Shown here one piece after another: positions 1,807-43,516 of a stretch of DNA of 64,000 bases. The position numbers were made by a program, and so were the translations under genes. The DNA lies in contig NZ_CP097269.1 in NCBI RefSeq assembly GCF_028473645.1, positions 1,630,001-1,694,000 on the forward strand. The letters are read 5' to 3'. This DNA comes from Acidovorax sp. GBBC 1281 (GTDB lineage: Bacteria; Pseudomonadota; Gammaproteobacteria; Burkholderiales; Burkholderiaceae_C). The number at the start of each line of letters is the position of its first letter. Within the stretch, counting starts at the first letter, position 1. The notes under the pieces were generated by a model that was not told the DNA's origin, did not search any database, and saw nothing but the letters and a program-made list of their open reading frames with translations.

Positions 1807-1848
1807 GGAGAATGAAAATTTTGAATCAAGCAATACAGTTGTAGTCAC

Positions 1849-2589: not shown

Positions 2590-2713
2590 CCTGCTGCTGA
2601 CCTCAATTTGCGGTCTCTTGCGGTGGCTGATGAGGTGCTGGGTTGTTACCTGATTGGGCAGATACGGTGTACTTGCACCGGCTACACTGCCGCGTGTTGT
2701 GAAAGTACATGCT

Positions 2714-3709: not shown

Positions 3710-3720
3710 AACTGGAAAAA

Positions 3721-4536: not shown

Positions 4537-4574
4537 TTCCGATCAGTCGATGGACAGGACAGGAGTTGTGAGCG

Positions 4575-5618: not shown

Positions 5619-5655
5619 CCAGCGGTCGGACTTCTGCCCACGCTATGCTCGCGCC

Positions 5656-6534: not shown

Positions 6535-7352
6535 CGCCTTCCTTCGGACTCATCATCATTGGCGACGAAATCCTGTCCGGCAAGCGCGCCGACAAGCACC
6601 TGCCAAAGGTGATCGAGCTGCTGGGAGCGCGCGGTTTGCAGCTGGCCTACGCCGACTATGTGGGTGACGACCCAGGCTGCATTACCGCGACCCTGCAGCG
6701 TGCCTTCGCTTCCGGGGATGTGGTGTTTTCCTGCGGCGGTATCGGTGCCACGCCCGACGATCACACCCGCCAATGCGCTGCGCGCGCGCTGAACGTGCCG
6801 CTCCGGTTGCATCCGGAGGCAGAGTCGTTGATTCGGGAGCGCATGCAGGACGTCGCGACGGAGCAGGGCGTGCCTTATGAGCCCGACCGTGCGGACAATG
6901 TGCACCGACTGAACATGGGGGTGTTTCCCGAGGGGGCCCGCATCATTCCCAATCCCTACAACAAGATTCCTGGTTTTTCATGCGACGGCGGTGCCGGCGG
7001 TGCTGTGCACTTCGTGCCGGGCTTTCCCGTGATGGCATGGCCGATGGTGGAGTGGGTGCTGGACCGCCACTGTGCGCAGTGGTTCAACCGCGCCCCCCAA
7101 ACCGAGCATTCCGTCGTGGTCTACGGCGCGATGGAGGCGGCTCTGACGCCGTTAATGGAGCGGATTGAAAGCCAGCACGCGTCGGTACGTGTTTTCAGCC
7201 TGCCAAGCGTGGACCATCCCGTGCATGGGCGCCACATTGAGCTCGGCGTCAAAGGCCCCGCAGAGTTGGTGCCCGCTGCCTGGACCGCTTTGCAGGCGGC
7301 GCTGCATGAATTTGGTGCAAACCGCGGCCCTGAAATGGTGCGCAATCTTTAG
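6531..7352 (+). CDS. CinA-like molybdopterin-binding domain protein
   Basis: A 273-residue protein of the MoaB/Mog (MoCF-binding) fold as found at the N-terminus of CinA proteins: GLIIIGDEILSGKRADKH at the start and FSCGGIGATPDDHTR around residues 65-80. It lacks the C-terminal nicotinamide-mononucleotide deamidase domain of full CinA, so an enzymatic role is uncertain. CinA-type proteins act in pyridine nucleotide repair; stand-alone versions are usually annotated competence/damage-inducible protein A. The start ATG overlaps the EI24 stop codon by four bases. Confidence 0.8.
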   Translation: MTPSFGLIIIGDEILSGKRADKHLPKVIELLGARGLQLAYADYVGDDPGCITATLQRAFASGDVVFSCGGIGATPDDHTRQCAARALNVPLRLHPEAESLIRERMQDVATEQGVPYEPDRADNVHRLNMGVFPEGARIIPNPYNKIPGFSCDGGAGGAVHFVPGFPVMAWPMVEWVLDRHCAQWFNRAPQTEHSVVVYGAMEAALTPLMERIESQHASVRVFSLPSVDHPVHGRHIELGVKGPAELVPAAWTALQAALHEFGANRGPEMVRNL

Positions 7353-7374
7353 AGCCCTGTTTTACTCCATGACT

Positions 7375-7391
7375 TGCACTTTATTGGTGCA
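7375..7391 (+). promoter_or_regulatory. NtrC-type binding site 1 upstream of glnA
   Basis: TGCACT-N5-GGTGCA, a 17-base dyad with one mismatch to the enterobacterial NtrC consensus TGCACC-N5-GGTGCA. It lies about 66 bases upstream of the -24 element of the predicted sigma54 promoter, a normal distance for an enhancer. Confidence 0.78.
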
Positions 7392-7424
7392 AATTGAGTG
7401 GGGTGGCAGATCTGGAAGAGGGCG

Positions 7425-7441
7425 TGCTCCGCCTTAGTGCA
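7425..7441 (+). promoter_or_regulatory. NtrC-type binding site 2 upstream of glnA
   Basis: TGCTCC-N5-AGTGCA, a 17-base match with two differences from the consensus. It is centred 50 bases (about five helical turns) from site 1, so two NtrC dimers could sit on the same face of the DNA. It is weaker by sequence than site 1. Confidence 0.6.
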
Positions 7442-7455
7442 TTGCAGCACCTGGC

Positions 7456-7471
7456 TGGCACGTAACCTGCT
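7456..7471 (+). promoter_or_regulatory. sigma54 (RpoN) -24/-12 promoter of glnA
   Basis: TGGCACGTAACCTGCT carries the invariant GG (7457-7458) and GC (7469-7470) with exactly ten bases between, matching TGGCAC-N5-TTGC. Transcription would begin near 7482, 40 bases before the glnA start codon. Together with the two upstream NtrC-type sites it predicts nitrogen-controlled expression. Confidence 0.82.
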
Positions 7472-7521
7472 TTTCTTTCGTGGTGTTTTTTTCAACAAGC
7501 GCTTAAATCCTGGAGAACCTG

Positions 7522-8937
7522 ATGGCAAAGACCGTTGCAGACGTGATGAAGATGGTGAAGGAGAACGAGGTCAAGTTTGTTGACTTTCGCTTCACCGATA
7601 CCCGCGGCAAGGAACAGCACGTGACTGTGCCCGTGTCCCATTTCGATGAGGACAAGTTCTCTTCGGGTCACGCATTCGACGGCTCTTCGGTGGCGGGCTG
7701 GAAGGGCATCGAAGCTTCGGACATGCAGCTCATGCCCGATCCCAACACCGCCAACATCGACCCGTTCTTTGAGGAAACCACGCTGTTCCTGCAATGCGAC
7801 GTGATCGAGCCAGGCGATGGCAAGGCCTACGACCGTGACCCCCGCTCCATCGCCAAGCGCGCTGAGGCCTACCTGAAGGCTTCCGGCCTGGGCGACACGG
7901 CCTTCTTCGGCCCTGAGCCTGAATTCTTCATCTTCGACGGCGTGCGCTGGTCCAATGAGCCCGGCAAGGTCATGTTCGAGATCGAAGAATACGAAGCGCC
8001 CTGGAACTCCGGCGCCAAGCTCGAAGGCGGCAACCGCGGCCACCGTCCCACGGTCAAGGGCGGCTACTTCCCGGTGCCCCCCGTCGACAGCACGCAGGAC
8101 ATGCGCGCTGAAATGTCCCTGATCCTCGAATCCCTGGGCATTCCGGTCGAAGTGTTCCACCACGAAGTGGCGGGCGCAGGCCAGAACGAGATCGGCACTA
8201 AGTTCAGCACGCTGGTCGAGCGCGCCGACTGGACCCAGGTCCTGAAGTACGTGGTCTGGAACGTGGCCAATGCCTATGGCAAGACCGCGACCTTCATGCC
8301 CAAGCCCTACGCGGGCGACAACGGCTCCGGCATGCACGTGCACCAGTCGATCTGGAAGGACGGCAAGAACCTGTTCGCCGGCGACGGCTATGCCGGCCTG
8401 TCGGACTTCGCCCTCTACTACATCGGCGGCATCATCAAGCACGCACGTGCCCTGAATGCCATCACCAACCCTGGCACCAACAGCTACAAGCGCTTGGTGC
8501 CCGGCTTCGAAGCCCCGGTGAAGCTGGCCTACTCGGCCCGCAACCGCTCGGCATCGATCCGCATTCCCTACGTGGCGAACCCCAAGGGCCGCCGCATCGA
8601 GGCGCGCTTCCCTGATCCATCGGCCAACCCGTACCTGTGCTTCTCGGCCCTGATGATGGCCGGCCTGGACGGCGTGGAAAACAAGATCCATCCCGGCGAA
8701 GCCGCCACGAAGGATCTGTACCATCTGCCGCCTGAGGAAGACAAGCTGGTCCCGACCGTGTGCCACAGCCTCGACCAGGCGCTGGAGTATCTGGACAAGG
8801 ACCGCGGCTTCCTCACCAAGGGTGGCGTGTTCTCCGACTCCATGCTCGACGCCTACATCGACCTGAAGATGGGCGAAGTCACGCGTTTCCGCATGGCGCC
8901 CCACCCCGTGGAATACGACATGTACTACTCGCTGTGA
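7522..8937 (+). CDS. glnA: glutamine synthetase, type I
   Basis: This 471-residue protein is a full-length GSI: N-terminal beta-grasp domain, then the catalytic domain with [38 protein letters not shown] and the ATP/NH4 loop region. It condenses glutamate and ammonia to glutamine with ATP in the cytoplasm, and is the main ammonia-assimilating enzyme. The tyrosine that GlnE adenylylates is present in DLYHLPPEE (Y400), so post-translational control is expected. A GGAG ribosome-binding site precedes the ATG. Transcription is predicted to depend on RpoN and NtrC, whose genes lie just downstream. Confidence 0.97.
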
Positions 8938-30295: not shown

Positions 30296-31012
30296 TCAGC
30301 GCTGGCGGCGCAGGCGGGCGATGCCGAACATGCCGAGCAGCGAGGCCATCAACATTAGGCCCCATTCGGATACGGTGGGAATCGGCGATGCCGTCACCGC
30401 GGCGGCCGCCATGGAGAAGCTCACGGGCGAGGCGTTGGCCGTGCTGCGGGAGGTGTCGGTCACGGTGGAGACGAGGCAGGTGTTGGTGACCCCGCTGTTG
30501 CCCGTGCCCACGGTCTGGCAGCCGGAATTGTGGGTGGCGGTGCCTGCGTTGCTGGCGATCACTGCGGCCGTGAAACGGTCCGCCGTGGTGTGGGGCGCCG
30601 TGCCCGTCAGCCACAGCACGGCCTGCATCAGATTCACGTTCGTGATGTTGCCGGAGGCGTCGGTGGAGATGCGCAGCGTGTTCAGGCGCGCATTGGCATC
30701 GGTCGAGGCGACGGTATCGAGCCCGGTGGAGAAGCTGTAGGAGGTGACGGTCGAGCCGATCTCCAGGTTGCTGGCGTTGGCCGGCAGGTTGCCGGCCGTC
30801 GTGAACGTGCCGGTCACGTTGTTCGTGGTCAGGAAGTTGGCGCATAGGCTCGCGGGCGTCGTGGTGCAGTTCGTGTAGTTCTGCAGGCTGGCGTAGTTGC
30901 CGGTGCTGTTGATGTTGACCGTGGCACCGAACGATGTGCCGGCCGCCAGGGTGAGCACGGTGCCCAATAGGATTTTTCGGCGCTGTTGCACAAATCGAAT
31001 TGCAGACGGCAT
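30296..31012 (-). CDS. IPTL-CTERM sorting-signal surface protein, N-terminus remodelled by an IS
   Basis: About 238 residues. The C-terminus (IPTVSEWGLMLMASLLG, then RLRRQR) is an IPTL-CTERM tripartite signal: motif, membrane helix and basic tail, used for exosortase-like processing in Acidovorax relatives. The body is Thr/Ser/Asn/Ala-rich with paired cysteines, as in secreted surface proteins. The only sensible start (31012) lies inside the adjacent insertion sequence: residues 1-11 (MPSAIRFVQQR) are translated from its end, then KILLGTVLTLAAGTSFGA supplies a signal-peptide core. The native start has therefore been lost or replaced, and expression would depend on sequence in the IS. Confidence 0.72.
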   Translation of the reverse strand: MPSAIRFVQQRRKILLGTVLTLAAGTSFGATVNINSTGNYASLQNYTNCTTTPASLCANFLTTNNVTGTFTTAGNLPANASNLEIGSTVTSYSFSTGLDTVASTDANARLNTLRISTDASGNITNVNLMQAVLWLTGTAPHTTADRFTAAVIASNAGTATHNSGCQTVGTGNSGVTNTCLVSTVTDTSRSTANASPVSFSMAAAAVTASPIPTVSEWGLMLMASLLGMFGIARLRRQR

Positions 31013-32029
31013 GACCCCAACCCCAGACGGACCTATGCCACAGCAGTCACCGACACGGTGTGAGGACGGCCGATCTGACTGAACCGATTGAGCAAGGCCA
31101 CGCGGACATGCAGCTCCACAACCTGGCGGTCGAACGTGCGCGCGATCACCCGTTCGCCCAGTCGCTTGAAGCAGTGCATCTTCGTCTCCACAAGGCTGCG
31201 CCGGTGGTAGCCGCTCCACTTCTTCCAAATGCCGCGACCCAGGCGCTGGCACGCCCGAATGGCCTCATTACGATGCGCCGAGCCCGGACTCGACTTCTTC
31301 CAATGGCTGGCGTTCTTGCGGGGCGGGATCACCGCCATCGCGTGCCGCTCGGCAATGGCGTCCAGGCAGGCGCGCGTGTCGTAGGCGCCATCGGCACTGA
31401 CGCTTTCGATGGATTCGTCAGTGGGAATCTGAGCCAGCAACCCGGGCAACATCGGCGCATCCCCAATGGCGTTGCTGGTCACCTCGATGGCGCGTATTTC
31501 CAGCGTCTGCGCGTCGATGCTCAGATGGACCTTGCGCCATTCGCGCCGGTATTCAGCACCATGCTTCTTGCGTTTTCACTCTCCTTCGCCCAGGAACTTG
31601 ATGCCGGTGCTGTCCACCAGCAACTGCAGCGGCGAGTTGGTTCGCTGGTAGCTCAGTTCGACCTGCAAGGTCTTTTGGCGCCGGCAAACAGTGCTGAAGT
31701 CAGGTACCGGCCAGTCCAGCTTTGCCAGCCGCAGCAGGCTCTGCACCATGCCCAGCGCCTGTCGCAAGGGCTGGCCGAACAGGCACTTGATGCTCAGGCA
31801 GAACTGGATTGCTGCGTCCGAGAAGGTTCGGCTGCGTCCACGCCTGCCGGTCGGCGTGCCAAACCACTGCATGCCCTCATCTAGCCACATCGTCAACGAG
31901 CCTCGCGCTTTCAGCGCCGCGTTGTACGCCTTCCAGTTCGTCGTGCGGTACTTGCTCCGCTGCCTGTTCTTCGTCTCTGTCACGCAGTCAGTCTACGGGC
32001 ATCAGCATCGCGATTTGTGCAACAAAGCC
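30979..32029 (-). mobile_element. IS5-family (IS903-group-like) insertion sequence
   Basis: About 1051 bp bounded by 18-base imperfect inverted repeats: GGCGCTGTTGCACAAATC at 30979-30996 and, reversed, GGCTTTGTTGCACAAATC at 32012-32029 (16 of 18 identical). Length, termini and the single transposase fit the IS903 group of IS5, which normally makes 9-base target duplications. The flanking nonamers (ggatttttc left, caagcccgg right) do not match, and the two flanks are unrelated in content. An adjacent deletion or recombination probably followed insertion. Confidence 0.87.
31033..31983 (-). pseudogene. IS5-family transposase with an internal stop
   Basis: The frame begins MTETKNRQRSKYRTTNWKAYN and runs 316 codons to 31033, but codon 136 (31576-31578) is TGA, where homologues have Trp in a GEGEWKRKKHG context. 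The frame is open on both sides: MTETKN...FLGEGE, then KRKKHGAEYRREWRKVH. DDE-type landmarks remain: LLVDSTGIKF (first Asp), SADGAYDTRACLDAI (second) and the C-terminal helix with KWSGYHRRSLVETKMHCFK (Glu). A single TGG-to-TGA change is the simplest explanation, so the element is probably unable to transpose on its own. Confidence 0.88.
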
Positions 32030-32296: not shown

Positions 32297-33025
32297 ATGT
32301 CCCGCGTTCCACTGCAACCTGACGACGTCTCCAGCAACGGAATACTGCATGCGATGGCCGCAGACGATTTGCAGCGCTGGCTACCCCTCATCGATGTGCT
32401 GGAGCTTCCGCTGGGGCAGGTGCTGTACGAGTCCGGCGCGGCGGTGCGGCACATCTACTTTCCGTCCACCGCCATCGTGTCGCTGCTGTATGTGATGGAA
32501 GACGGCTCCTCCGCGGAGATCGCCGTCGTGGGGCGGGAAGGCGTGGTGGGCATTTCCCTCTTCATGGGGGGCGGGTCGATCCTGAGCCGGGCCGTGGTGC
32601 AGAGCGCCGGCCGGGCCTTTCGCATCCGGGCCGATCGCATCCGCGGCGACGTGGCCAATCCGGCCATCCTGCCGCTGCTGCTGCGCTACATCCAGGCACT
32701 CATCACGCAGATGTCGCAGACCGCGGTCTGCAATCGCCACCACATGCTGGACCAGCAACTGTGCCGTTGGCTGCTGCTCAGCCTGGACCGGCTGGAGGGC
32801 AGCACGCTCGTCATGACGCAGGAGCTGATCGCGGGCATGCTGGGCGTGCGGCGCGAAGGCGTGACGGAAGCGGCCATGAAGCTGCAGAAGGCTGGGCTGA
32901 TCCGCTACACGCGCGGGCGCATCGAGGTGCTGGACCGGCCTGCGCTGGAGCAGCGCTCGTGCGAGTGCTACGCCGTGGTCAAGCGCGAGTACGACCGGCT
33001 GTTGCCGCCCTCGCACAGCCTCTGA
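32297..33025 (+). CDS. Crp/Fnr-family transcriptional regulator, copy 1
   Basis: A 242-residue protein with an N-terminal cyclic-nucleotide-binding-type beta-roll (about 20-140, VYFPSTAIV-like HIYFPSTAIVSLLYVMEDGSS and VGREGVVGISLFMGG) and a C-terminal winged helix (about 170-230, MTQELIAGMLGVRREGVTEA). The cNMP-contacting Arg/Glu of CRP are not evident, so the ligand is unknown. It is paralogous to 42617-43516, sharing long identical stretches such as GVRREGVTEAAMKLQKAGLI. It converges on the 3' end of the exopolysaccharide-like operon. The start MSRVPLQ (32297) is preferred; the upstream extension is derived from non-coding remnant DNA. Confidence 0.87.
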   Translation: MSRVPLQPDDVSSNGILHAMAADDLQRWLPLIDVLELPLGQVLYESGAAVRHIYFPSTAIVSLLYVMEDGSSAEIAVVGREGVVGISLFMGGGSILSRAVVQSAGRAFRIRADRIRGDVANPAILPLLLRYIQALITQMSQTAVCNRHHMLDQQLCRWLLLSLDRLEGSTLVMTQELIAGMLGVRREGVTEAAMKLQKAGLIRYTRGRIEVLDRPALEQRSCECYAVVKREYDRLLPPSHSL

Positions 33026-33093
33026 GCGGTTCGTTCCGGGGCTGCGCCGCAGGGCCGGTCATTCCGCAAGCGGCGGTTGCGCTGTCCTTTCTC

Positions 33094-33930
33094 TCAGCGC
33101 ATGGCGTTCGGCGATACGTCGCTCATGACCCAGGAGTACAGCGCCACGAACACGAGCGCATCGAACACGGCGCCGAAGCAGATGTACAGCACCGGCATGT
33201 AGAGCACCGACAGATGGTGCATGAGGAACGCCTGCGCCATCACCTGGTGGGGGATGAGCAACGCGAAGAACGCCAGGATCGCCAGGGTGTTGCCCACCTT
33301 CGACAGCAGGCTTTCGTTCAGGATGTAGTAGCCGGCGCCCAGCATCACCGGCGTGGCGACCATCATCACGTAGCCGATGAACATCAGCTCTTCGCTGTGC
33401 CGGGAAATCGTGTACGGAAAATGCTGCGGGATGAACCAGAAGTAGGCCAGCGCGAACGCCTGCACCACGCCGATGATGCGCATCGGGTACTTGAGGGGCA
33501 GGCTGGCTTTGCGCATCCGCAGCGAGGCCAAGAGCAGCACCACCACCATGCCCGCCGCGGCCGCCATGCCGGCCATGCCGGGCAGGGGGCGGTCGCTCGC
33601 GCCCGCGGTGAGCGCCATGCCGTCCGAGCCCACGCGGCCGTCGATCAGCAATCGCCGCAAAGGAATGTCCAGGGCCTGCGACCAGAACACGATGACGTCC
33701 CGCCAGAAGTCGAACAGGTCGCGCCGCCCCCACACCAACAGCGCACACAGCGCCGCGGGCAGCACGATGGCCTGGATCAGCAGGAAGGGCGTCACCTTCA
33801 GGGGGGTCATGGAGCGGTGCGGGCGGCTGTGCACCTGCCTGCCGGTTTCGCGCAAGGCCTCGAAGGTGGCGGCGAAGGCGCGGCCGTGCGGATGCGCGGC
33901 ATCGGCCGGGATGGGGGTGGTTGGTGTCAT
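33094..33930 (-). CDS. polytopic membrane protein, last gene of the EPS-like operon
   Basis: About 278 residues with some seven hydrophobic segments (LIQAIVLPAALCALLVWG, MAAAAGMVVVLLLASL, IIGVVQAFALAYFWFIP, LMFIGYVMMVATPVMLG, TLAILAFFALLIPHQVM, LYICFGAVFDALVFVAL). I do not recognise a family. By position, 11 bases after the outer-membrane barrel gene, it may be an inner-membrane accessory of polymer synthesis or export. The reading frame continues upstream into the barrel gene's region, but the ATG at 33930 gives the only plausible start. Confidence 0.75.
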   Translation of the reverse strand: MTPTTPIPADAAHPHGRAFAATFEALRETGRQVHSRPHRSMTPLKVTPFLLIQAIVLPAALCALLVWGRRDLFDFWRDVIVFWSQALDIPLRRLLIDGRVGSDGMALTAGASDRPLPGMAGMAAAAGMVVVLLLASLRMRKASLPLKYPMRIIGVVQAFALAYFWFIPQHFPYTISRHSEELMFIGYVMMVATPVMLGAGYYILNESLLSKVGNTLAILAFFALLIPHQVMAQAFLMHHLSVLYMPVLYICFGAVFDALVFVALYSWVMSDVSPNAMR

Positions 33931-33941
33931 GGCGTCTCTGC

Positions 33942-34775
33942 TCAGAAATCGTGGAACAGGCCGACGGTGGCGCCCGCCCGCCGGTACAGCGGGTTGCTGT
34001 AGCGGTTCACGGCCAGCAGCAGGCCGGTGTTCTGGCCGATCCAGTGTCGCCAGGCGATGCTGGCCTCGCGGCTGGTGAAGTTGACCAGCTGCGTGGCGGG
34101 GCCGGTGGCCAGATAGCCTTCGCCCCCCCAGCCGACCCGCGCGGTCACCAGGTCGGCCTTGGCGCGGCCCCAGGTCAGGGCCACGAAGTGCTGGCGCGTG
34201 TTCACGCTGCCCGGGGCGCTTTCGTTGAAGCGCACGCCGCCCTCGACGATCCAGGGCGCCTCGAAGTAGTAGGTGGCCCCCAGCAGCACGCTGCGGTCGG
34301 AGTGACCGTCCGGCGCCCTGTAGTAGCCCGCGCCCAGGGTGCCCACCAGCCGGCGGTCGGCCAGGAATTTGCGGTTCAGCGTGGCGTCCACGCGGTACTT
34401 GGGCAGGTAGAACGCGCCGTCGCCAGCGCCGAGGGTCACCGAGCCGTACCAGTCTTCGTCGAAACGGTATGTATCTCCCACGCCCAGGTAGGTGCCGCCC
34501 ACGCCGAAGCGCCGGTGCGAAGACAGCTCGCCCTGCAGCACATGGCCGGGCAGGCCCCATCCGCCGGTGAGCGTCATGTCGCGCCAGTTGCCGTAGGGGC
34601 CGCTCAGGTGCTGCGTCCCCGCGCTGAGCTGCAGGCTGCGGGTGCGCTCTTCGACGGGTGCGGGCGGCGCGGGGATGACCAGGTCCTGTCCTGTGGCGGG
34701 TGCCTGGGCCAGGCCGGGCGCGGGCGCGCACAGGGCAAGCAGCCAGAGAAAGTGAAGGGCCGGGTGGCGTTGCAT
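33942..34775 (-). CDS. YaiO-type outer-membrane beta-barrel protein
   Basis: A 277-residue protein with a signal peptide (LHFLWLLALCAPAPGLAQA), then alternating amphipathic strands rich in Gly and aromatics (LQLSAGTQHLSGPYGNWRDM, YGSVTLGAGDGAFYLPKYRV, LVGTLGAGYYRAPDGHSD, ATYYFEAPWIVEGGVRF), ending in a terminal Phe as outer-membrane barrels do. The pattern resembles the YaiO family, found beside glycosyltransferase and deacetylase genes in E. coli. Here it is the natural outer-membrane exit or anchor for the operon's polymer. The start MQRHPALHF is chosen because it gives the cleanest signal peptide. Confidence 0.78.
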   Translation of the reverse strand: MQRHPALHFLWLLALCAPAPGLAQAPATGQDLVIPAPPAPVEERTRSLQLSAGTQHLSGPYGNWRDMTLTGGWGLPGHVLQGELSSHRRFGVGGTYLGVGDTYRFDEDWYGSVTLGAGDGAFYLPKYRVDATLNRKFLADRRLVGTLGAGYYRAPDGHSDRSVLLGATYYFEAPWIVEGGVRFNESAPGSVNTRQHFVALTWGRAKADLVTARVGWGGEGYLATGPATQLVNFTSREASIAWRHWIGQNTGLLLAVNRYSNPLYRRAGATVGLFHDF

Positions 34776-34806
34776 GCGGGGGGCTCCAATGGGGGGGGCG
34801 GGTCGG

Positions 34807-35829
34807 CTAGCGGCAGGCGGTCGCGGGAGGGGCGGCGACCACACCCTTGCTGGCCAGGATCTGGAAGGACACTTCGTCGGTGACCGCCCAGCGGGCCGAA
34901 TGCCGCAGCGGGGCGCTGTGGCGCACCCAGCAGCGGGCGGTGTCCGGGTCGTTGCGGCGCAGCGCCAGCACGGCGATGATTCCCCACGGGTAGTCGGTTT
35001 GGCCCTGGGCCAGCCACTCGCTTCGGTGCCGGCGCATCCAGTCGCGGTAATGGGCGTCGGCCGAGTCCGGCAGGAGGGGAAAGCCCACCATCAGCGGAAA
35101 CAGCTGGGCCACGTGGTCCGGGTAGAAGGCCGCCGGTTGCGCGCGCTGCTCCATCTGCGTGGACACCAGGAAACGGCGGTTCACCGGGTCCCAGAACGTG
35201 TCGTGGATGGCCTGCGCCAGCCGCTCGGACGGCTCGGCGCCCGGCGCGCTCAGGGGCTCGCGCACGCGCAGCGACCAGACCTCCAGGTTGTCCATGAACA
35301 GGCCGTGCAGGTACACCGGCGACACCATGTAGATCCCGCGCGAGGGCTGGTAGAGGTGGGCCAGCGCCGCCCGGCTGGTGGTCTGGCTCTTGCGCAAGGC
35401 GGGCGAGGCTTTCACGTGCGCCGGCATGGCCTGCAGCAGCCTGAGCCACATCGCCAGCAGCGAGTCGTCGGCATCGGCGGTCTTGCAGGCCTTCCACCCG
35501 CCGCCGTCATCGCGGCAGAAGCGGTCGAACGTGCCGTCGGGTTTTTGCTGCGGCACCAGCCAGTCCGCGAACCGGACGGCCGGGCCCTGGATGTCCAGGC
35601 CGTTGTCGTGCGCGAGCAGCAGCGCCTGCAGCGTGAAGTAGGGGTCGCTGGCCGCGCCGCCATGCAGGATGGTGATGGCGCCGCTGTCGCCGCCGTACGC
35701 CTGCAGGTCCAGTAGCGTGGCAGCGCCCGCCCTGCTGGCGGTGCCCGCGGCGTTGGCGAAGGGCAGGGGCAACGCCATGGCCGCGATGGCGGCCAGGGCT
35801 TGCAGGGCGCGGGAGAGGCGGGTGTTCAT
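34807..35829 (-). CDS. exported alpha/alpha-toroid-like protein (possible glycoside hydrolase or lyase)
   Basis: A 340-residue protein with a signal peptide (LQALAAIAAMALPLPFANAAG). The rest resembles six-hairpin (alpha/alpha toroid) carbohydrate-active folds: DWLVPQQKPDGTFDRFC, KTADADDSLLAMWLRLLQA and DTFWDPVNRRFLVSTQ. The TADADDS segment carries acidic residues placed like those of such enzymes. No specific GH or PL family is recognised. A periplasmic polymer-trimming role parallel to BcsZ or AlgL is an inference from context. Its ATG overlaps the stop of the preceding gene (ATGA at 35826-35829). Confidence 0.65.
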   Translation of the reverse strand: MNTRLSRALQALAAIAAMALPLPFANAAGTASRAGAATLLDLQAYGGDSGAITILHGGAASDPYFTLQALLLAHDNGLDIQGPAVRFADWLVPQQKPDGTFDRFCRDDGGGWKACKTADADDSLLAMWLRLLQAMPAHVKASPALRKSQTTSRAALAHLYQPSRGIYMVSPVYLHGLFMDNLEVWSLRVREPLSAPGAEPSERLAQAIHDTFWDPVNRRFLVSTQMEQRAQPAAFYPDHVAQLFPLMVGFPLLPDSADAHYRDWMRRHRSEWLAQGQTDYPWGIIAVLALRRNDPDTARCWVRHSAPLRHSARWAVTDEVSFQILASKGVVAAPPATACR

Positions 35830-36881
35830 GCCTGCTTCACCATGCCGATCTCGTGGGCCCAGAGCGTGCCGTGCACGACCGCGCCTTCCTCCGCCACGAT
35901 GCAGCGCCCGCTCACGGTCGTCAACGCATCGGGCAGCCCGACAACGGTGCGCGCACCGAGCATCACATCGCCTTCGCACACCACCGGCCCCAGCGCTAGC
36001 GCACCGGGCAGCAGGTACGCGGACTGCTCGCAGGTGATGGCGCCGTGCACGACGGCCCCTTCTCCCAGCGTGATGCCGCCGCGCGCCTTGATGTCGCCGA
36101 CCACGGTGGTGAAGGGGCTGATGGTGAGGAACCCCGTCACCACCAGGGAGCCACGGTAGATGGAGTGCTCCGCCAGCGTGCAGTCACCCCGCACCATGTA
36201 CAGCTGCGGGGTGCGCTGGATGGCGTGCGCCAGCGTGGCATAGCTGGCCGTCTGCTGGGCCGGCGGCGTGGGGGTGGGCGGGGCCGTGGAGGGCTGACCC
36301 GTGCCCGGGCCTCCCAGCCGCACCACGGGCGCATGGAGCCGCTCGAACCAGCAGGGGGCGGCCAGCTTCACCGCCGCGCCCGCGGACACGCGCCGCAGGG
36401 CCGTGCTGCCGGGGCCCAGGCGCAGCTCTCCGTCGGCATGCGCCCAATCGGTGATCTTGCTGCCGTTACCCAACTCCAGGTCGCGCGTGGCATAGAGGCT
36501 GGAGAACGCGCTGCCGGCACCCACGTGCATGCTGCCTTCCACGAACACGGGCTGCAGCGCGACGATGGCCGCGGGCGTCGTCACATCGCCGCACGCCAGC
36601 AGGCGGGCCCGGGCGCTGGCCCATGCCGCAGGCGCGGCGTCGGGCGGGATCAGGTCGAAGGACTCGTACCCCGTGGACTCGCCGTGGCCGAGCCGGGCCT
36701 GCGCATCGGCGCGCAGCCGCCGGGCGAAGTGGTCGATGTCGGCCGCATGGTCGGGTGGAACCAGCAGGGCCGCGCTGTCGGTCGGGCGGCGCCATTCGCG
36801 GATGGCGGGCACGAAAGGCAGCAAGAACAGCGCGGCGCAGGCCGTCGCGAAGGCCAGCAGCATGGAAGGGTATTCAGGCAT
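35826..36881 (-). CDS. membrane-anchored bactofilin-like polymer-forming protein
   Basis: A 351-residue protein with one N-terminal membrane helix (LLAFATACAALFLLPFVPAI), a mid region (about 40-220) with short beta-repeat stretches (VFVEGSMHVGAGSAFSSLYA), a Pro/Thr-rich linker near residues 190-210, and a C-terminal repetitive beta domain (about 220-345). That domain has turns such as IYRGSLVVTGFLTISPFTTVVGD and ITLGEGAVVHGAITCEQ, characteristic of bactofilin-type right-handed beta-helices. It could scaffold the synthase in the inner membrane. The gene overlaps both neighbours (8 bases upstream, 4 downstream), indicating tight translational coupling. Confidence 0.75.
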   Translation of the reverse strand: MPEYPSMLLAFATACAALFLLPFVPAIREWRRPTDSAALLVPPDHAADIDHFARRLRADAQARLGHGESTGYESFDLIPPDAAPAAWASARARLLACGDVTTPAAIVALQPVFVEGSMHVGAGSAFSSLYATRDLELGNGSKITDWAHADGELRLGPGSTALRRVSAGAAVKLAAPCWFERLHAPVVRLGGPGTGQPSTAPPTPTPPAQQTASYATLAHAIQRTPQLYMVRGDCTLAEHSIYRGSLVVTGFLTISPFTTVVGDIKARGGITLGEGAVVHGAITCEQSAYLLPGALALGPVVCEGDVMLGARTVVGLPDALTTVSGRCIVAEEGAVVHGTLWAHEIGMVKQA

Positions 36882-38178
36882 TTTTGACCTCGTTGCGGTA
36901 ACGCGCCGTCTTGTCCCACACCATCTCGCGCTTGAAGAGAGCGTCCAGAAGCAGGCTCCACACGGCGCCGGAGATGGCGAACAGGCTCACCATGAAGCCC
37001 AGCATGTTCAATGGCAGCAGCCGCAGGCGCCGGCGGTTGCCATCGATCAGCACCGCGATGACGATCTCGAAGAACGCGGCGAAGTTGCCCAGCGTGCCGT
37101 AGACCATCAGCGCGAACACGGGGATCAATTGCGACAGCAGCGACCCTGCATTGAGGAAGTACAGCCCCAGCGCCAGGCACCAGCCGGCCAGCATGATGAG
37201 CGGGATCACGAAGACGAACAGCAGCAGCATTCCGTCCACGCGCTGGCCCAGCGTGAGGTAGGGGCTGGTGACGAATTTCCACCAGTGCCGCGCCAGCACC
37301 TGGTTGTGCCCCTTGGCCCAGCGCTTGACCTGCTTGATGCGCACGGGCCATTCCTCGGGCACTTCCTCGTAGCACTCCGAGCGGTTGGTGTACACGGTCT
37401 TCCAGCCGTTGAACATGAGCCGGAAGGTGATGTCGGTGTCCTCGGCCAGCGTGTCGTCGTGCCAGCCGCCCACGGCCTCCACGGCCGACATGCGCACGCC
37501 CCCCACGGTGCCGCCGTACTGCGGCATCAGGTTCATGTTCATCCGCGCCTGCTGGTCGACCTGGTAGCCGGCCGAGCGCTCCAGGTCCAGCAGCCGGGTC
37601 AGCAGGTTCGCGCCGCTGTTGACGGGCACCACGCGGCCCATCACCGCACCCACTTCCGGATCGAAGAAGGGCGCCACCAGTTGCTTGAGCAGCCCGCGCC
37701 CGGGCACGTAGTCGGCATCGAAGATGATGGCGATGTCGCCCTCGGCAAAGCGCAGTGCGTCCTTGAGCGCCGCCGACTTGCCCGGCTTGCCGCTGGTGCG
37801 GTGAAAGGGGGCCAGCCGGGACGGGAACCGTTCGTCGTAGCCGTTGATGATCTGCGCCGTCGCATCGCTGGAGCGATCGTTCACCGGAATGATCATCATG
37901 CGGTCGGCGGGGTAGTCGGTCTTGAGCAGCGCCTCGATGCAGCCGGCGATGACCTTCTCTTCGTTGTGCGCGGCAATGAACACGGTGATCATGGGCCACT
38001 GAGCCACCGCGATGTCCAGATAGGGGTGGCGCTGCGTGCCGACGAGCCGGCTCATGGTGAACGCGAAGTGCCTGATGCCGTACAGCACCATGAACAGCAC
38101 CACGAACATCAGCAGATAGGCCATCACGGCGGCGACCGGCTGCGCCGAGAAGGCGGGAAGAAGTCCGAGCGGATGCAT
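36874..38178 (-). CDS. processive family 2 glycosyltransferase (polysaccharide synthase)
   Basis: A 434-residue protein. An N-terminal helix pair (VMAYLLMFVVLFMVLYGI) precedes a GT-A domain with VFIAAHNEEKVIAGCIEALL, IIFDADYVPG (DxD-type), AEDTDITFRL (catalytic Asp) and QVKRW (QxxRW, acceptor binding). At least four C-terminal hydrophobic segments follow (MLLLFVFVIPLIMLAGWCLA, LIPVFALMVYGTLGNFAAF). This is the hallmark of membrane synthases that polymerise and extrude a sugar chain (PgaC, HasA, BcsA relatives). With the epimerase gene immediately before it, the donor may be UDP-ManNAc or UDP-GlcNAc. It has no PilZ domain. Confidence 0.9.
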   Translation of the reverse strand: MHPLGLLPAFSAQPVAAVMAYLLMFVVLFMVLYGIRHFAFTMSRLVGTQRHPYLDIAVAQWPMITVFIAAHNEEKVIAGCIEALLKTDYPADRMMIIPVNDRSSDATAQIINGYDERFPSRLAPFHRTSGKPGKSAALKDALRFAEGDIAIIFDADYVPGRGLLKQLVAPFFDPEVGAVMGRVVPVNSGANLLTRLLDLERSAGYQVDQQARMNMNLMPQYGGTVGGVRMSAVEAVGGWHDDTLAEDTDITFRLMFNGWKTVYTNRSECYEEVPEEWPVRIKQVKRWAKGHNQVLARHWWKFVTSPYLTLGQRVDGMLLLFVFVIPLIMLAGWCLALGLYFLNAGSLLSQLIPVFALMVYGTLGNFAAFFEIVIAVLIDGNRRRLRLLPLNMLGFMVSLFAISGAVWSLLLDALFKREMVWDKTARYRNEVKNA

Positions 38179-38182
38179 GGTG

Positions 38183-39301
38183 TCAGGCCGCCAGGGGCAA
38201 GGGCATGGGTGCGGCGGGCACCAGGTGGCTCGCCAGCACGGAGACGATGCGCTGGCAGGCCTGGCCGTCGCCGAAGGGGCTGTGCACCTGCGCCATCTGC
38301 CGGTGCGCGTGGGGGTCGCCCAGCAGCCGCGTGACGTGCGAGACGATGGCGTCGTACGACGGACCGATGAGCAGCGCGCAACCGGCCTGCACGGCCTCGG
38401 GCCGCTCGGTTTCGTCACGCAGCACCAGCACGGGCACGCCGAAGGTCGGGGCTTCTTCCTGCAGTCCACCCGAGTCCGTGAGCAGCAGCCAGGCATCGGC
38501 GAGCGCCTGCTGCATGTCCATGTAATCGAGCGGATCGCTCAGCTGGATGTTGGCGATGCCGCCCAGCAGCGCCTGCACCGGCTCGCGCACCACGGGGTTC
38601 TTGTGCACCGGAAACAGCACCTGCAGCCCGGGGTTCTGCCGCGCCAGATCGGCGATGGCCCGGCAGATGCCGCGCACGCCTTCGCCCCAGCTCTCGCGTC
38701 GGTGGAAGGTGACCAGCAGGTGCCCCCGACCGGTGGTGCGACGCCGCACCCCGTGGTGGGTGCAGGTCCAGTGCTGCGCATCCACCACGGTGTTGCCCGT
38801 CACGTGGATGCGTTCGTCGGGGATGCCCTCCGACCGCAGCGCGGTGCGCGAGCGCGAGGTGGGCGGAAAGTGGAACTGCGCGAGCCGGCTGATCATCTGG
38901 CGCAGCCCTTCTTCGGGAAAGGGCCGCGCCAGGTTGTAGGTGCGCAACCCCGCCTCCACGTGGGCCACGGGCAGGCCACGATAGAAGCCCGCCAGCGCGC
39001 CGATGAAAGCGGACTCGGTATCGCCCTGCACGATGACCAGCGCATAGTCTTTCGCCTGCAGCACCCCGTCGATCTGGCGGCGGCAGCCGGCGCTGAATTC
39101 CTGCAGGGTGCTGCCTTCGCGGTGGAGCACGATGTCCGGCCGGATGGTGAAGCAGTCCAGCATCTGGATGGCCATTTCATCGTGCTGGCCCGTGTGCAGC
39201 CAATGCACGTGGGCCCAGCTGAGCGACCGCAGTGCGTGGTACAGGGGTGCCAGCTTGATGATCTCGGGGCGCGTGCCCGAGACGATGAGAATGTCCTGCA
39301 T
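38183..39301 (-). CDS. wecB: UDP-N-acetylglucosamine 2-epimerase (non-hydrolysing)
   Basis: A 372-residue WecB-type enzyme: VSGTRPEIIKLAPLYHAL at the start, HTGQHDEMAIQMLD, VIVQGDTESAFIGALAG, HVEAGLRTYNLARPFPEE and LLTDSGGLQEEAPTFGVPVL near the C-terminus. It interconverts UDP-GlcNAc and UDP-ManNAc in the cytoplasm. Its stop lies four bases before the synthase start, which suggests it supplies the synthase with UDP-ManNAc. The start MQDILIVSG is chosen to match the conserved N-terminus of the family; an upstream ATG at 39445 would add about 48 unrelated residues. Confidence 0.92.
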   Translation of the reverse strand: MQDILIVSGTRPEIIKLAPLYHALRSLSWAHVHWLHTGQHDEMAIQMLDCFTIRPDIVLHREGSTLQEFSAGCRRQIDGVLQAKDYALVIVQGDTESAFIGALAGFYRGLPVAHVEAGLRTYNLARPFPEEGLRQMISRLAQFHFPPTSRSRTALRSEGIPDERIHVTGNTVVDAQHWTCTHHGVRRRTTGRGHLLVTFHRRESWGEGVRGICRAIADLARQNPGLQVLFPVHKNPVVREPVQALLGGIANIQLSDPLDYMDMQQALADAWLLLTDSGGLQEEAPTFGVPVLVLRDETERPEAVQAGCALLIGPSYDAIVSHVTRLLGDPHAHRQMAQVHSPFGDGQACQRIVSVLASHLVPAAPMPLPLAA

Positions 39302-39530
39302 GGCTCGATCCTTTGCGGTGGTGGGGGTGGAGAGGAAAGAGGAAAAAGCCAGGCATCCCGGAGGGGGCGCAGTGCCGGCGGGCACGCTGCAGTGGAGTGG
39401 CGGGAGCCCCATGCTCCATCGGCCCGATCTCTTTCTGAACGGCACGGGCGATGGTGCGTGCGGTTTGGCGAGCGGTCTGTTCGCTGACCCACATAGCGCA
39501 GCGCTTGCCCGGCACAGCGTCAGTGGGGGT

Positions 39531-42044
39531 TCAAGGAATGAACGCGGGGTTGCGCTGCGCCTGGAACTGGGCCTGCGTCACCGGCTTGCCCGTGACCAGC
39601 CAGACCGTACCGCCGTCCGAGACGGTCACCGACCCCGCGGTGACGATGGTGGGCCGCAGGTAGCGGGCCTTGGGCAGCATCCACACCATCTCGGCCATCG
39701 TGGTGGGGTGCGTCGCCGTGAAGCGCGTCGTCGTGCCGTTCGCCAGCAGGGTCTGGGTCCAGCCCACCTGGTTGCGCGTTGCCATGAAATCGGCCAGGCG
39801 TGGCATGGTGTACCACCTGAACTTCGCGCCCTTCGTCTGCCCATAGGCCAGCAGACCCTTCACGACGTCGATCCAGTCGTTCGCGCCGGGCGGGTGTGCG
39901 TACACCATGCGGCTGGTGTTGTAGTTGACCGAGAAGTCCACCATGGCCTGGTACCAAGCGTTCACCTCGGCCTTGGGCACGTTGTAGTCCTGCCATTCCT
40001 CGAACGTGGCATACGTGCCCTGGGGCGTGACCGGGAACACCCACAGCGCCGGGTTGAGCAGCACGCCGTCTCGGTACTGGCGCGTGGCGCCCAGCCCGGT
40101 GTGGCCGCCGAAGTAGGCCGCCACCACGCCTTGCTGCTCCAGCCAGGTCATGGCCCATGGCGGATTGTTGCCCTGGGGGGCCGAGTAGCCGCGCGCCGGG
40201 CGGCCCACGACGGTGTCCACTGCGCTCCTGTTCTGCACCAGATACGGCTGGAACTCCGCAGCGTTGTTCTCCGTGGCGTTGAGGCCGTAGTCGTCGTGGA
40301 TCCACCCGCCGTGCGATCCGATCGCATGGCCTTTCGCGTCCAGCCGACTAAGCAACTGCTGCGCCACCGTGTTGTTGTTCAGGTTCCAGCCCAGGCCGTC
40401 GCCCGGCACGATGGTGTCGGGCCCCGCCGTCATCTCCATGGAGAACTTGTGCGTGTTGAAGACGCCGGCAGCCTCCAGATGCAGCGAAGGCTGCTGCGCG
40501 GCCATCGAGTCCAGATGCCAGTCCAGCGTCATTCCGGCCACCCCGTTGGGCATGGCCGACAGGTGGGCTCCTTGTACGAGGTGTTCCATGAAGTAGCGCA
40601 GAAAGCCGTGCATCGGCAATGCGTCGGTGCGCCCCTTCAGATAGGTCAGGGGCATGTTCACGAACAGCACCTTGCCTGTGCCGGTCGTCTGAATGCCCGC
40701 CACGAGTCCGAACGACGGGGACAGCGCCAGCGGTGTTCCGGCGTAGGTGCCGGTGGTCACGTAGGTCGGATAAATCAGGTGGCCCAGCAGGTAGCCGTTG
40801 TACGCGTCCAGCGTGTCCACTTCCGCCGCCTGCAGCGATTCACCGGCGAGCGAGGCACTGGCCTGCGATGCCTCCGCCGATGCCACCGTCAGCGGATGCC
40901 GTGCCAGGCCGGCGGGCTGCACGCGGGTGGCGGCCGCCGGCTGCCGGCCTTTGAATGCCTTGCCGAAATCCACGGTCACCGACCGAGCGCGCACCTGTCC
41001 CGCCGCCGAGCGTTGCCGGTCCTGCACGGAGTAGGAAGGCAGGGACTGGAACTGCTGCGGATCGAACCCCTTGACCCCGCCCGGGTCGCCGGGACTGGTG
41101 GGCAGATAAAGCGCCTCGCCCACGGCCAGGCGCGCCGCTCCCAGGAGGCCGTTGCTTCCCGTCGGGGCCTGGCCCGTGCCGGGTGCGACCGCGGAGGCTT
41201 CGGAGGCGGTGGCCGACGATTGCACCAGGTTGTAGGGCAGCGACTTTCCCGGGGGCACGAGCAGCTCGCGCATGGTGCTGCGCATGGCCGTCACCGGGCC
41301 CAGTCCCACCATCTGGCCCAGCAGCGCGTCGTACAGCACATAGTCCACCCCCGCCAGATCGCTCAGCCGCGATTTCGGAATGGGATAGACGGGCTGGTTG
41401 TTGGCATTGAGCGTCAGGGCGCCGAAGTCGTAGGTCAGCAGTGCCCGCCCGCCTGCCGTCACATAGCTGCGCACGGAGGCCAGCAATGCATCCGTGGCGA
41501 TCACGTGCAGCTGGTCGGGCAGCACGAGCCCGGCGTACTTGAGCGCCTTGGCCGGGGCCATGGCCAGGAACTGCGCGTCGGTGACCACGGCGATGCGCGT
41601 GCCCGTCTCCGATGCGGCATCCAACCAGGCCGTCACGCGCGGATCGGTCGCGGGCTGGTCGTCGGGCAACAGCAGCATCAGCAGGCCCGGGTCTTCCACC
41701 CCGTTGTTGAAGGGAGCGACCACCGTAGCCACCGTAGCCACCGCTGCCCGTTGCGTTGCTGGCTGCGCGGCCACCGCATCGGCCGCCATTTCGGTGGCGG
41801 GGGGCTGCGTGGAGGATGGCAATTGCACCGCCTTGACCTGGGGCAGCCAGCGGTCGCCCGCAGCGGCCGGGGTGGAGGACTGGGTGCCGGCGGCGGCCGT
41901 GCTGGCTGCCGATTCGCCGCTGCCATCATCGCCGCCGCCGCATGCGGAAAGCAGCACAAGGAGACCCGCACACACGAGGCGCCCCGCATGCCCGCGTTGC
42001 CGGGTGCTGGCGGCATGGTGGAAGAAGGCTCTGAAGATGGACAT
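39531..42044 (-). CDS. deacetylase-like lipoprotein, first gene of the EPS-like operon
   Basis: This 837-residue protein has a lipoprotein signal ending in a lipobox (LVLLSAC) followed by GGGDDGS. Residues about 45-110 are a low-complexity Ala/Thr-rich linker. Residues about 115-230 look like an alpha/beta amidotransferase-like domain (LLMLLLPDDQPATDPRV, VTAGGRALLTYDFGAL). Residues about 500-740 resemble a NodB-type deacetylase: TLDWHLDS, GSHGGWIHDD (His motif), YSAPQGNN and VYAHPPG. Layout and context recall PgaB and PelA, which deacetylate polymer in the periplasm. The motifs are divergent, so activity is not assured. A 229-base gap separates it from wecB. Confidence 0.75.
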   Translation of the reverse strand: MSIFRAFFHHAASTRQRGHAGRLVCAGLLVLLSACGGGDDGSGESAASTAAAGTQSSTPAAAGDRWLPQVKAVQLPSSTQPPATEMAADAVAAQPATQRAAVATVATVVAPFNNGVEDPGLLMLLLPDDQPATDPRVTAWLDAASETGTRIAVVTDAQFLAMAPAKALKYAGLVLPDQLHVIATDALLASVRSYVTAGGRALLTYDFGALTLNANNQPVYPIPKSRLSDLAGVDYVLYDALLGQMVGLGPVTAMRSTMRELLVPPGKSLPYNLVQSSATASEASAVAPGTGQAPTGSNGLLGAARLAVGEALYLPTSPGDPGGVKGFDPQQFQSLPSYSVQDRQRSAAGQVRARSVTVDFGKAFKGRQPAAATRVQPAGLARHPLTVASAEASQASASLAGESLQAAEVDTLDAYNGYLLGHLIYPTYVTTGTYAGTPLALSPSFGLVAGIQTTGTGKVLFVNMPLTYLKGRTDALPMHGFLRYFMEHLVQGAHLSAMPNGVAGMTLDWHLDSMAAQQPSLHLEAAGVFNTHKFSMEMTAGPDTIVPGDGLGWNLNNNTVAQQLLSRLDAKGHAIGSHGGWIHDDYGLNATENNAAEFQPYLVQNRSAVDTVVGRPARGYSAPQGNNPPWAMTWLEQQGVVAAYFGGHTGLGATRQYRDGVLLNPALWVFPVTPQGTYATFEEWQDYNVPKAEVNAWYQAMVDFSVNYNTSRMVYAHPPGANDWIDVVKGLLAYGQTKGAKFRWYTMPRLADFMATRNQVGWTQTLLANGTTTRFTATHPTTMAEMVWMLPKARYLRPTIVTAGSVTVSDGGTVWLVTGKPVTQAQFQAQRNPAFIP

Positions 42045-42212
42045 GATCCCGCCCTTTCGTGGTGATGAGCGGCCATTGGGCAGGAGGGGTTGCGGCGGTT
42101 CTGTTCGCTGCCGTACATCGACGACGCCGGCCTGGGTACGCTGGCGAACGGATGGTGCGATCCAAAGCCGCTAAAACGGCTGAAAACATGTTCGAGACGA
42201 AAGGCCCCCGCC
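42045..42212 (-). promoter_or_regulatory. probable promoter region of the EPS-like operon
   Basis: The 168 bases upstream of the operon must contain its promoter. An inverted repeat agccg-N6-cggct lies at about 42163-42178. No specific regulator site can be named, though a Crp-like regulator gene begins about 400 bases further on. Confidence 0.4.
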
Positions 42213-42392
42213 ATGGACCACCACACCATCGCATCCCAAGCCACCGTGCCGCCCGAAGGCCAGGCGCCGGGTTCCCTGGAGCATTTGCAGGCTGCACTGG
42301 CACAGGCTCTCGCGCAGATTGCAGACCTCGAAGAGGAAAAGCGCCAAATGATGCTGGCGGCCAACCATGTGCATTGGCTGACCATGCTCTAG
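42213..42392 (+). CDS. small hypothetical protein (59 aa) with a short coiled coil
   Basis: A 59-residue ORF, divergent from the EPS-like operon: MDHHTIASQATVPPEG, then a heptad-like stretch LQAALAQALAQIADLEEEKRQ. The ribosome-binding site is weak (gaaagg about ten bases upstream). Nothing is recognised. It could be a true small gene linked to the operon or the downstream regulator, or a chance ORF. Confidence 0.4.
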   Translation: MDHHTIASQATVPPEGQAPGSLEHLQAALAQALAQIADLEEEKRQMMLAANHVHWLTML

Positions 42393-42616
42393 CCGGACCC
42401 ACCCCCTGAACAAGGCTTCGGTGCCAGTGCTTGGCCCTGTGGCGGTGTCCGGCGGCCAGCGGTGGGCCTGTGGTTCCACTGCGTGTGCCCGCCGCGAAAC
42501 GCTCTCTTTGGTGTGCGGGCCTGCACGGGCGGGTTTTATGTGTTCGCTATCGAACAGAGAAGTTGAAAAGGTTTACCTATATTGATTTGACATTTCCACT
42601 CTCATCACGCCCCACC

Positions 42617-43516
42617 ATGCGCATGCAATTAAGTATCCCCGAGGTGTCACGCAACACGCTTGTGGCGGCGCTGGATGATGTCGATCTGCAGCGGTGGCTG
42701 CCTTTCCTGGAGATGGTGGACCTGCCTCTGGGCAAGGTGCTGTCCGAGGAGAACGTGACGACCAGCCACGTCTACTTTCCCACCACGGCCATCGTCTCCA
42801 AGTTGCACGTGATGGAAGACGGCTCGTCCGCGCAGCTGGCGGTCGTCGGCAACGAGGGCGTGGTGGGCATCTCGGTCATCATGGGCGGCGTTTCGGGCGC
42901 CATCCGGGCCGTGGTACTGAACGCGGGCAAGGCATTGCGCATGCGCAGCGAGTTCTTTCGCGAAGAAGTGAACCGCCCACCTGTCCTGCATCTGCTGCTG
43001 CGCTACATCCAGGCGCTCATGTCGCAGATGTCGCACACGGCCGCGTGCAACCGGCACCATGTGCTGGACCAGCAACTGTGCCGCTGGCTCCTGCTGAGCA
43101 TGGACCGGACCCAGGGCAACTGGCTGTTCATGACGCAGGAACTGATCGCCACCATGCTCGGCGTGCGGCGCGAAGGCGTGACCGAAGCCGCCATGAAGTT
43201 GCAGAAGGCCGGCCTGATCCGCTACGCCCGGGGCCGCATCGAGGTCATGGACCGGGTCGGGTTGGAACGGCGGGCCTGCGAATGCTACGGCGTGGTCAAG
43301 AGGGCCTATGACCGCCTGCTGCCGAGATGCGATGACCACCTTCTCTACCTGCCGGAGCCGGCGCGGGGGGATGGTGCGGGCCATGGGCTTGCGCGGGAGC
43401 CCTATCGCATCCTGCCGTACGCCGCCATGGAACCCGTCCATGCGCGACTGGACAGTCTCGACCTTGGCCATCGCACGCACCTGCCAGCATCGAAGGGAGC
43501 GCCGGACCCGCGTTGA
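42617..43516 (+). CDS. Crp/Fnr-family transcriptional regulator, copy 2
   Basis: A 299-residue paralogue of 32297-33025. The beta-roll (VYFPTTAIVSKLHVMEDGSS, VGNEGVVGISVIMGG) and winged helix (MTQELIATMLGVRREGVTEA) align along nearly the whole of copy 1. This copy has about 60 additional C-terminal residues after YDRLLPRCDD that look unstructured (Pro, Gly, His, Arg-rich), possibly from loss of an earlier stop codon. It is upstream of and divergent from the EPS-like operon. The start MRMQLSIPE is chosen from alignment with copy 1; a longer start at 42431 is unlikely. Confidence 0.85.
   Translation: MRMQLSIPEVSRNTLVAALDDVDLQRWLPFLEMVDLPLGKVLSEENVTTSHVYFPTTAIVSKLHVMEDGSSAQLAVVGNEGVVGISVIMGGVSGAIRAVVLNAGKALRMRSEFFREEVNRPPVLHLLLRYIQALMSQMSHTAACNRHHVLDQQLCRWLLLSMDRTQGNWLFMTQELIATMLGVRREGVTEAAMKLQKAGLIRYARGRIEVMDRVGLERRACECYGVVKRAYDRLLPRCDDHLLYLPEPARGDGAGHGLAREPYRILPYAAMEPVHARLDSLDLGHRTHLPASKGAPDPR

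Follow-up and report, generated by a model that had tools for sequence, protein, structure and literature searches.

Organisation of the locus

Seven consecutive open reading frames (ORFs) on the minus strand, lettered A to G in transcriptional order, extend from position 42044 to position 33094 of the window, a stretch of 64,000 nucleotides (nt) from contig NZ_CP097269.1 of Acidovorax sp. GBBC 1281, and form a candidate operon for a synthase-dependent exopolysaccharide (Table 1). The frames lie where an earlier note on this DNA had placed them, and the two overlaps that it described, 8 nt between C and D (36874-36881) and 4 nt between D and E (35826-35829), are both borne out. The tight spacing that it claimed for most of the set holds for B to G, a compact block in which B and C are 4 nt, E and F 31 nt and F and G 11 nt apart, and does not extend to A, which is set apart from B by 229 nt. 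This gap carries a weak terminator-like site at 39361-39349 (the scanned region has nine such sites, against 3.9 expected from shuffles), and no sigma-70-like promoter was found in 32900-42600.

Table 1. Genes of the block and the regulators on either side (positions in the window)
Gene	Position	Strand	Start	Product
A	39531..42044	-	42044	837-residue deacetylase-like lipoprotein
B	38183..39301	-	ATG 39301	non-hydrolysing UDP-GlcNAc 2-epimerase, WecB type
C	36874..38178	-	ATG 38178	processive GT2 polysaccharide synthase
D	35826..36881	-	ATG 36881	membrane-anchored bactofilin-like protein
E	34807..35829	-	ATG 35829	exported glycosidase-like (alpha/alpha) toroid
F	33942..34775	-	ATG 34775	YaiO-family outer-membrane beta-barrel
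G	33094..33930	-	ATG 33930	polytopic inner-membrane protein
R2	42617..43516	+	probable ATG	Crp/Fnr-type regulator, divergent from A; PF13545 53 bits
R1	32297..33025	+	probable ATG	Crp/Fnr-type paralogue of R2, convergent with G; PF13545 57 bits

Epimerase, synthase and the bactofilin-like protein

Profile searches agree with the family assignments that had been made from the letters of the DNA. B scores 397.5 bits against the wecB model TIGR00236, whose cut-off is 210.15, and is the sole such epimerase found in the genome (genome search, E<=1e-5). C matches PF13641 at 102.7 bits in the Pfam search, shows by hydropathy one membrane segment near the N-terminus and four towards the C-terminus, and shares the D.D, ED and QxxRW motifs of processive glycosyltransferase family 2 (GT2) enzymes with all 66 of the sequences compared. 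The view that the cluster falls outside the characterised exopolysaccharide families is upheld, as profile searches place the synthase in none of them: for the best equivalog, PgaC/IcaA, C scores 125.1 bits where 422.3 are required, for the CelA/BcsA cellulose synthase equivalog 76.2 where 699.1 are, and it is below the cut-off of every other GT2 equivalog or glycosyltransferase family listed for it in the NCBIfam search too. The Pfam search found no MshEN domain on C, its matches being six glycosyltransferase-type families and two membrane matches under their cut-offs.

D begins with a single membrane helix (residues 5-31), and its structure model has two domains: a beta-solenoid on the N-terminal side (about 93-189) and, towards the C-terminus, a bactofilin domain (about 220-349). 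The latter has the bactofilin beta-helix fold, superposing on the Thermus thermophilus bactofilin 6rib at 1.3 A over 100 residues, and the bactofilin-like identity is thus strengthened by model and superposition; both fold comparisons made for D were limited to the Foldseek shortlist (84 chains in the domain comparison). Lysine and arginine are richer after the helix in 63 of 66 cases and equal in three, and by this charge rule the bactofilin part is predicted to be cytoplasmic. In three of the loci described below (L054, L059 and L061), D is a protein of 241-254 residues that has lost the N-terminal solenoid and kept the bactofilin domain.

The accessory proteins

A comprises an N-terminal domain, a low-complexity insert and a divergent CE4/NodB-like domain, in which HxD and HGGWxH motifs occur and which scores 22.7 bits at residues 557-637 against Polysacc_deac_1 (PF01522), just under the cut-off of 23.1. 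The metal motif of CE4 enzymes is H-x3-H; A departs from it in that HGGWxH is one residue longer, and the extra residue is visible in a weak alignment with 2j13 (E 0.041). Among 29 A sequences, HGGWx[HR] is present in all, SAPxGN in 25 and the strict form HxD[SN] in 16, while in their alignment H510, H578 and H583 are conserved at 1.00 and D512 at 0.97, the final H of HGGWxH being always H. The copy in the window has a lipobox, LLSAC.

No Pfam or NCBIfam model matches E or G. The assignment of E as a toroid is supported by its structure model and by Foldseek matches, the best of which is the polysaccharide hydrolase MmpH (E 7e-4), and residues D119, D122, D180 and E183 are identical in all of the 67 aligned sequences that have a residue there. 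Membership of GH126 (CPF_2247, PssZ) was considered for E, and the (alpha/alpha)6 toroid of this family is not separable here from other toroids. F is a clear YaiO protein (PF19413, 116 bits against 23.9; TIGR04390, 200.2 bits against 32, over residues 47-277 of 277), with no TPR region or family in the Pfam and NCBIfam searches. G has seven hydrophobic segments in the window and six or seven in 48 of 66 loci, and no solved structure matches its sequence at E<=1.

Conservation across genomes

The system is compact, and its distribution is patchy and spans many genera. With the window's own genome included each time, E was found in 8 of 399 genomes of the order, and G in 16 of 299 genomes of the family and 4 of 398 of the phylum; the four all belong to the order, so the spread shown here within the Pseudomonadota stays inside the Burkholderiales. 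When named genomes were scanned with E, 54 loci were obtained, labelled Acidovorax, Polaromonas, Ramlibacter, Curvibacter, Hydrogenophaga, Limnohabitans, Thiomonas, Oxalobacteraceae and others, and in three cases Bacillota. The counts that follow cover 66 loci besides the window, scored with iterated family hidden Markov models (HMMs) at a threshold of at least 50 bits: 52 of those 54 and 14 new ones (L091-L104) that the genome searches had added. Left out were L064 and L065 (Bacillota, in which only E matched) and L085-L090, which repeat L046, L048, L044, L059, L050 and L031; the short loci L001-L011 and L067-L084 also stand outside the counts. As the HMMs were built from L012-L066 and applied to L012-L063, the 52 loci are not score-independent, and the threshold meets unseen data among the loci in the 14 new ones only, which with 20 control stretches lay outside the training. 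Moreover, loci were fetched through E (including L102-L104), through G (L091-L099) or through both (L100, L101), so that the presence of the fetching anchor is by construction.

All of B to G are present in 62 of the 66 loci. Three of the exceptions (L012, L031 and L045) have contig ends inside the block, and the fourth, L063, is without F. Taken singly, B occurs in 64 loci, the two others being cut by contig ends, F in 63 (all except the cut L031 and L045, and L063) and G in 65, and all seven families are found in 12 of the 14 new loci. In the controls, 20 stretches of 19.9 kb (4 from elsewhere in the window's genome and 16 from other carrier genomes), one match to B was the sole match for any of the seven families; the co-occurrence of the genes thus exceeds chance. 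A search with G reached 15 genomes besides the window's: nine gave the new loci L091-L099, all with B to F, and six held loci known through E, of which five have B to F and the sixth, on a contig of 3.8 kb, has C, D and E. Scores are lower in L099 for D (81 bits) and G (73 bits), and some genes are divided between two pieces or frames, namely C (L029, L099), A (L094) and F (L096). A tblastn search of plasmids with D returned one record, the megaplasmid pMTS1 of Cupriavidus sp. P-10, on which all seven families stand consecutively on one strand in the order B-A-C-D-E-F-G. That the genes are conserved together is therefore confirmed, and the seven-gene set of the earlier note survives as a constant core of B to G; A, found in 28 of the 66 loci and 229 nt away from B in the window, falls outside the invariant core.

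Two further arrangements were seen among the loci. A second E-type toroid (274-307 bits) lies near the operon in L036, L039, L040, L042, L048, L050, L052, L053, L056, L057, L059 and L060, and a second E match is present in genome G367. In L039, L040, L042 and L103 the operon falls into two halves of opposite orientation within one neighbourhood, C-D-G facing E-F, with B beside C-D-G in L103 and beside E-F in the other three.

Pairing of C with D and the separate divergence of B

Gene order varies, with 19 patterns over 65 loci (the best copy being counted where A or E is doubled), and in each of them D follows directly after C. They share a strand in all 65 loci, and in 62 of these the gap between them is -70 to +25 nt (starts chosen by script); L049, L062 and L029 are the exceptions. 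Pairwise identities of C to G correlate with each other at rho 0.84-0.91 over 63 loci, the window included, against a largest value of 0.41 in 200 permutations per pair. B follows C to G at rho of only 0.36-0.45. It stands first in one group of loci, where it is 66-72% identical to the window's protein, and between E and F in another, where identity is 39-45%; the five B proteins scored (the window's, three of the second group and that of L063) are all above the wecB cut-off. The simplest reading would be that the epimerase gene has been exchanged or moved and yet retained, and its retention in 64 of 66 loci argues that its product is needed.

A version in Bacillota

L063, a contig of a metagenome-assembled genome (MAG) labelled Eubacteriales, lacks only F among B to G. 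Its G, C and D genes overlap or nearly do so, and are followed by genes for DHHW, a 205-residue protein, VTC, DUF4956 and CotH, and then by B and E. In tblastn comparisons (single sequence, nominal database 2e8) C matches at 46% (3e-124), B at 6e-82, E at 2e-9, D at 3e-9 and G at only 6e-4. The D gene (2317-4038) is fused to BspA-type leucine-rich repeats and its product scores 17.8 bits for bactofilin, under the cut-off, while 43 database proteins are related to the Bacillota form of G. The version is represented by one MAG contig, for which contamination of the bin would alter the label and not the gene order. Gram-positive Pel operons adjoin a cassette of CotH, polyphosphate polymerase and DUF4956 genes, according to excerpts of PMC7112168, and the likeness of the CotH, VTC and DUF4956 genes of L063 to this Pel-side cassette supports a role in exopolysaccharide production. 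In so far as those excerpts describe the Pel clusters, the present system differs from them in its GT2 synthase, with no Pel-named match in the searches described below, and no such cassette occurs among A to G.

Proposed machine and alternatives

Taken together, these genes probably encode a synthase-dependent exopolysaccharide machine for a partly deacetylated polymer of the N-acetylmannosamine (ManNAc) type, with a bactofilin as the constant partner of the synthase. B would convert uridine diphosphate N-acetylglucosamine (UDP-GlcNAc) into UDP-ManNAc, the putative donor, and C would polymerise the sugar and export the chain across the inner membrane. Anchored by its one helix on the cytoplasmic side, D could contact C directly, and its bactofilin domain would probably self-associate and so cluster or position the synthase; G may complete the inner-membrane complex. 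Beyond that membrane, the exported toroid E could trim or edit the chain, A, in the window a predicted lipoprotein and probably an outer-membrane one, may take off some of the acetyl groups, and F would be the exit pore.

Several observations weigh against this account. Full-length D has no Foldseek match at E<=0.001, and it stays under the Pfam bactofilin cut-off (PF04519, 24.0 bits against 27.9; 26.1 bits in the genome search), though the domain superposition is tight. The model of E is of moderate confidence (predicted local distance difference test, pLDDT, 75.4), and E reaches just 62-83 bits in eight loci (L091-L098). In 38 of the 66 loci the fetched stretch showed no A, and deacetylation there would need another enzyme or be absent; the lipobox pattern occurs in just 4 of 29 A proteins (starts chosen by script), so that lipoprotein status does not generalise beyond the window's copy. 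No TPR protein was found among A to G. Most synthase-dependent systems have a receptor domain for cyclic diguanylate (c-di-GMP), and the Pfam search found none in A to G; crude patterns for c-di-GMP genes gave, in loci against controls, GGDEF 23/66 and 3/20, EAL 17/66 and 5/20, and PilZ-like 47/66 and 18/20, with no clear separation of the two. The putative UDP-ManNAc from B could also feed another product, and the machine as a whole is read from sequences and structure models.

The sugar itself could be questioned. A polymer of the GlcNAc type, resembling poly-N-acetylglucosamine (PNAG), with the epimerase serving a branch or minor sugar, would suit the rank of PgaC/IcaA as top GT2 equivalog and the deacetylase alongside the synthase, as in Pga; yet the 125 bits are far under 422.3, no Pga accessory protein was matched in the NCBIfam search, and the epimerase persists throughout save at contig ends, even though its divergence does not track that of C to G, so that this polymer seems unlikely. 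The destination of the product is a separate matter. The Bacillota version without F would fit a cell-bound capsule, wall or lipid-linked glycan in place of a secreted biofilm polymer, and the type of regulator beside the operon is uninformative on biofilm, but the near-constant YaiO barrel and the processive GT2 motifs speak against it and make it a rather remote prospect. That the cluster is catabolic and degrades an external polysaccharide is hardly credible: the glycosidase-like E and deacetylase-like A would suit it, whereas the intact processive motifs together with a nucleotide-sugar epimerase are biosynthetic, and the Pfam search identified no uptake family among A to G.

The role of D is where the account faces its most serious contender. 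PgaD is the small subunit of PgaC, and D could by comparison be a small subunit with a passive or allosteric function, its beta-helix neither polymerising nor scaffolding anything. The closeness and co-divergence of C and D fit a 1:1 subunit, and the extra N-terminal solenoid and membrane anchor could, judging from the model, block filament growth; on the other hand, it is the bactofilin domain that is kept where the solenoid is lost, and almost all of this domain superposes on a bactofilin that forms filaments. Such a passive subunit has a real chance of being right, if a somewhat less than even one. At the other extreme, the anchored bactofilin could be an obligate synthase subunit that polymerises under the inner membrane and aligns the synthases into arrays as a cytoskeletal track, with G, C and D, the epimerase and the toroid forming a module common to monoderm Bacillota and diderm Burkholderiales, to which the YaiO pore would be an addition in diderms; this proposal is tentative and on balance doubtful.

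Bactofilins have roles in cell shape and in localising cell-wall enzymes. If the proposed machine with its bactofilin partner is real, the fixed association of a bactofilin with an exopolysaccharide synthase would directly tie the cytoskeleton to matrix secretion. How synthases are lined up is an open question even for cellulose, for which excerpts of PMC7811197 describe a cortical belt in Gluconacetobacter. The likeness lies in the idea of a cytoplasmic skeleton that aligns polysaccharide synthases; the differences are that the product there is cellulose and that the belt protein is unidentified in those excerpts. Further, the locus would give the probable ManNAc polymer a second machine of different construction; a polymer of this kind is postulated to be a phage receptor of Escherichia coli in excerpts of PMC8669472.

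Comparison with known systems

The closest experimentally studied counterpart, as a functional analogue, is the NfrBA/NGR system of E. coli, which was omitted when the earlier note compared the block with Pga, Pel, Bcs, Alg and Psl. Infection by phage N4 needs NfrB, NfrA and, of the genes for enterobacterial common antigen (ECA), only wecB; the system depends on c-di-GMP, a ManNAc polymer is postulated for it, and nfrB homologues adjoin an epimerase gene in species without a separate WecB pathway, according to excerpts of PMC8669469 and PMC8669472. To the extent of these excerpts the two systems share a GT2 synthase, dependence on a WecB-type epimerase, which B is by its score, and an outer-membrane exit protein. 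C is without MshEN and the 277-residue barrel F is no NfrA-type TPR-plus-barrel protein, so the block may work like NGR and is not a member of it; it has instead the bactofilin subunit, toroid, deacetylase and protein G.

The PNAG system (pgaABCD), whose deacetylase lipoprotein is PgaB, resembles the block in its PgaC-like GT2 enzyme and differs in that C is below the equivalog cut-off and no other Pga protein was recognised: the NCBIfam search gave no match named PgaA, PgaB or PgaD, the library's holding of those models being unchecked. Nor was there a Pel-named match in the Pfam and NCBIfam searches, with the Pel content of the library likewise unchecked, and by its score C is not a Bcs synthase either. 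From the bactofilins at large, D is distinguished by its membrane anchor, extra N-terminal solenoid, sub-cut-off PF04519 score and synthase-linked gene. We know of no bactofilin in the Pss system of Listeria. Excerpts of PMC6307706 describe Pss as making a beta-1,4-ManNAc backbone with galactose, with the deacetylase PssB and the hydrolase PssZ; belonging to a monoderm, it is set apart here by description. In E. coli K-12, the adjacent genes yaiX-yaiP-yaiS-yaiO combine, by annotation, a YaiO barrel and a deacetylase with a glycosyltransferase and part of an acyltransferase. These genes were considered as orthologues and rejected: C and YaiP are a distant GT2 match only (27%, 1e-11), D against yaiX is at chance level, and the HMMs of the six families other than C had no match in the yai region. 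Titles and abstracts of the papers listed by searches of the open-licence part of PubMed Central held no description of the operon, or of a bactofilin in a synthase-dependent system.

Flanking regulators and neighbouring features

The Crp/Fnr-type paralogues R1 and R2 stand on both sides of the operon and are 66% identical. Relatives were found near 32 of the 66 loci and in none of the 20 control stretches, and control of the operon may be transcriptional. FNR-like palindromes number 12 in the window (6.7 expected), none of them between A and R2 with the one pattern tried. A third Crp/Fnr copy, 58% identical and with one internal TGA, lies at G000:C1:1759363-1760046.

Beside R1, adjoining transposase DDE pieces (PF13737 and PF01609; 31033-31983, minus strand) mark an insertion sequence (IS) remnant, and a protein with an IPTL-CTERM sorting motif (PF18203, 40.3 bits) is encoded at 30296-31252 on the minus strand, near the exopolysaccharide operon. 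Finally, the GC content of positions 1-8000 of the window is 0.505-0.615 against about 0.64-0.75 elsewhere, which suggests a foreign stretch.

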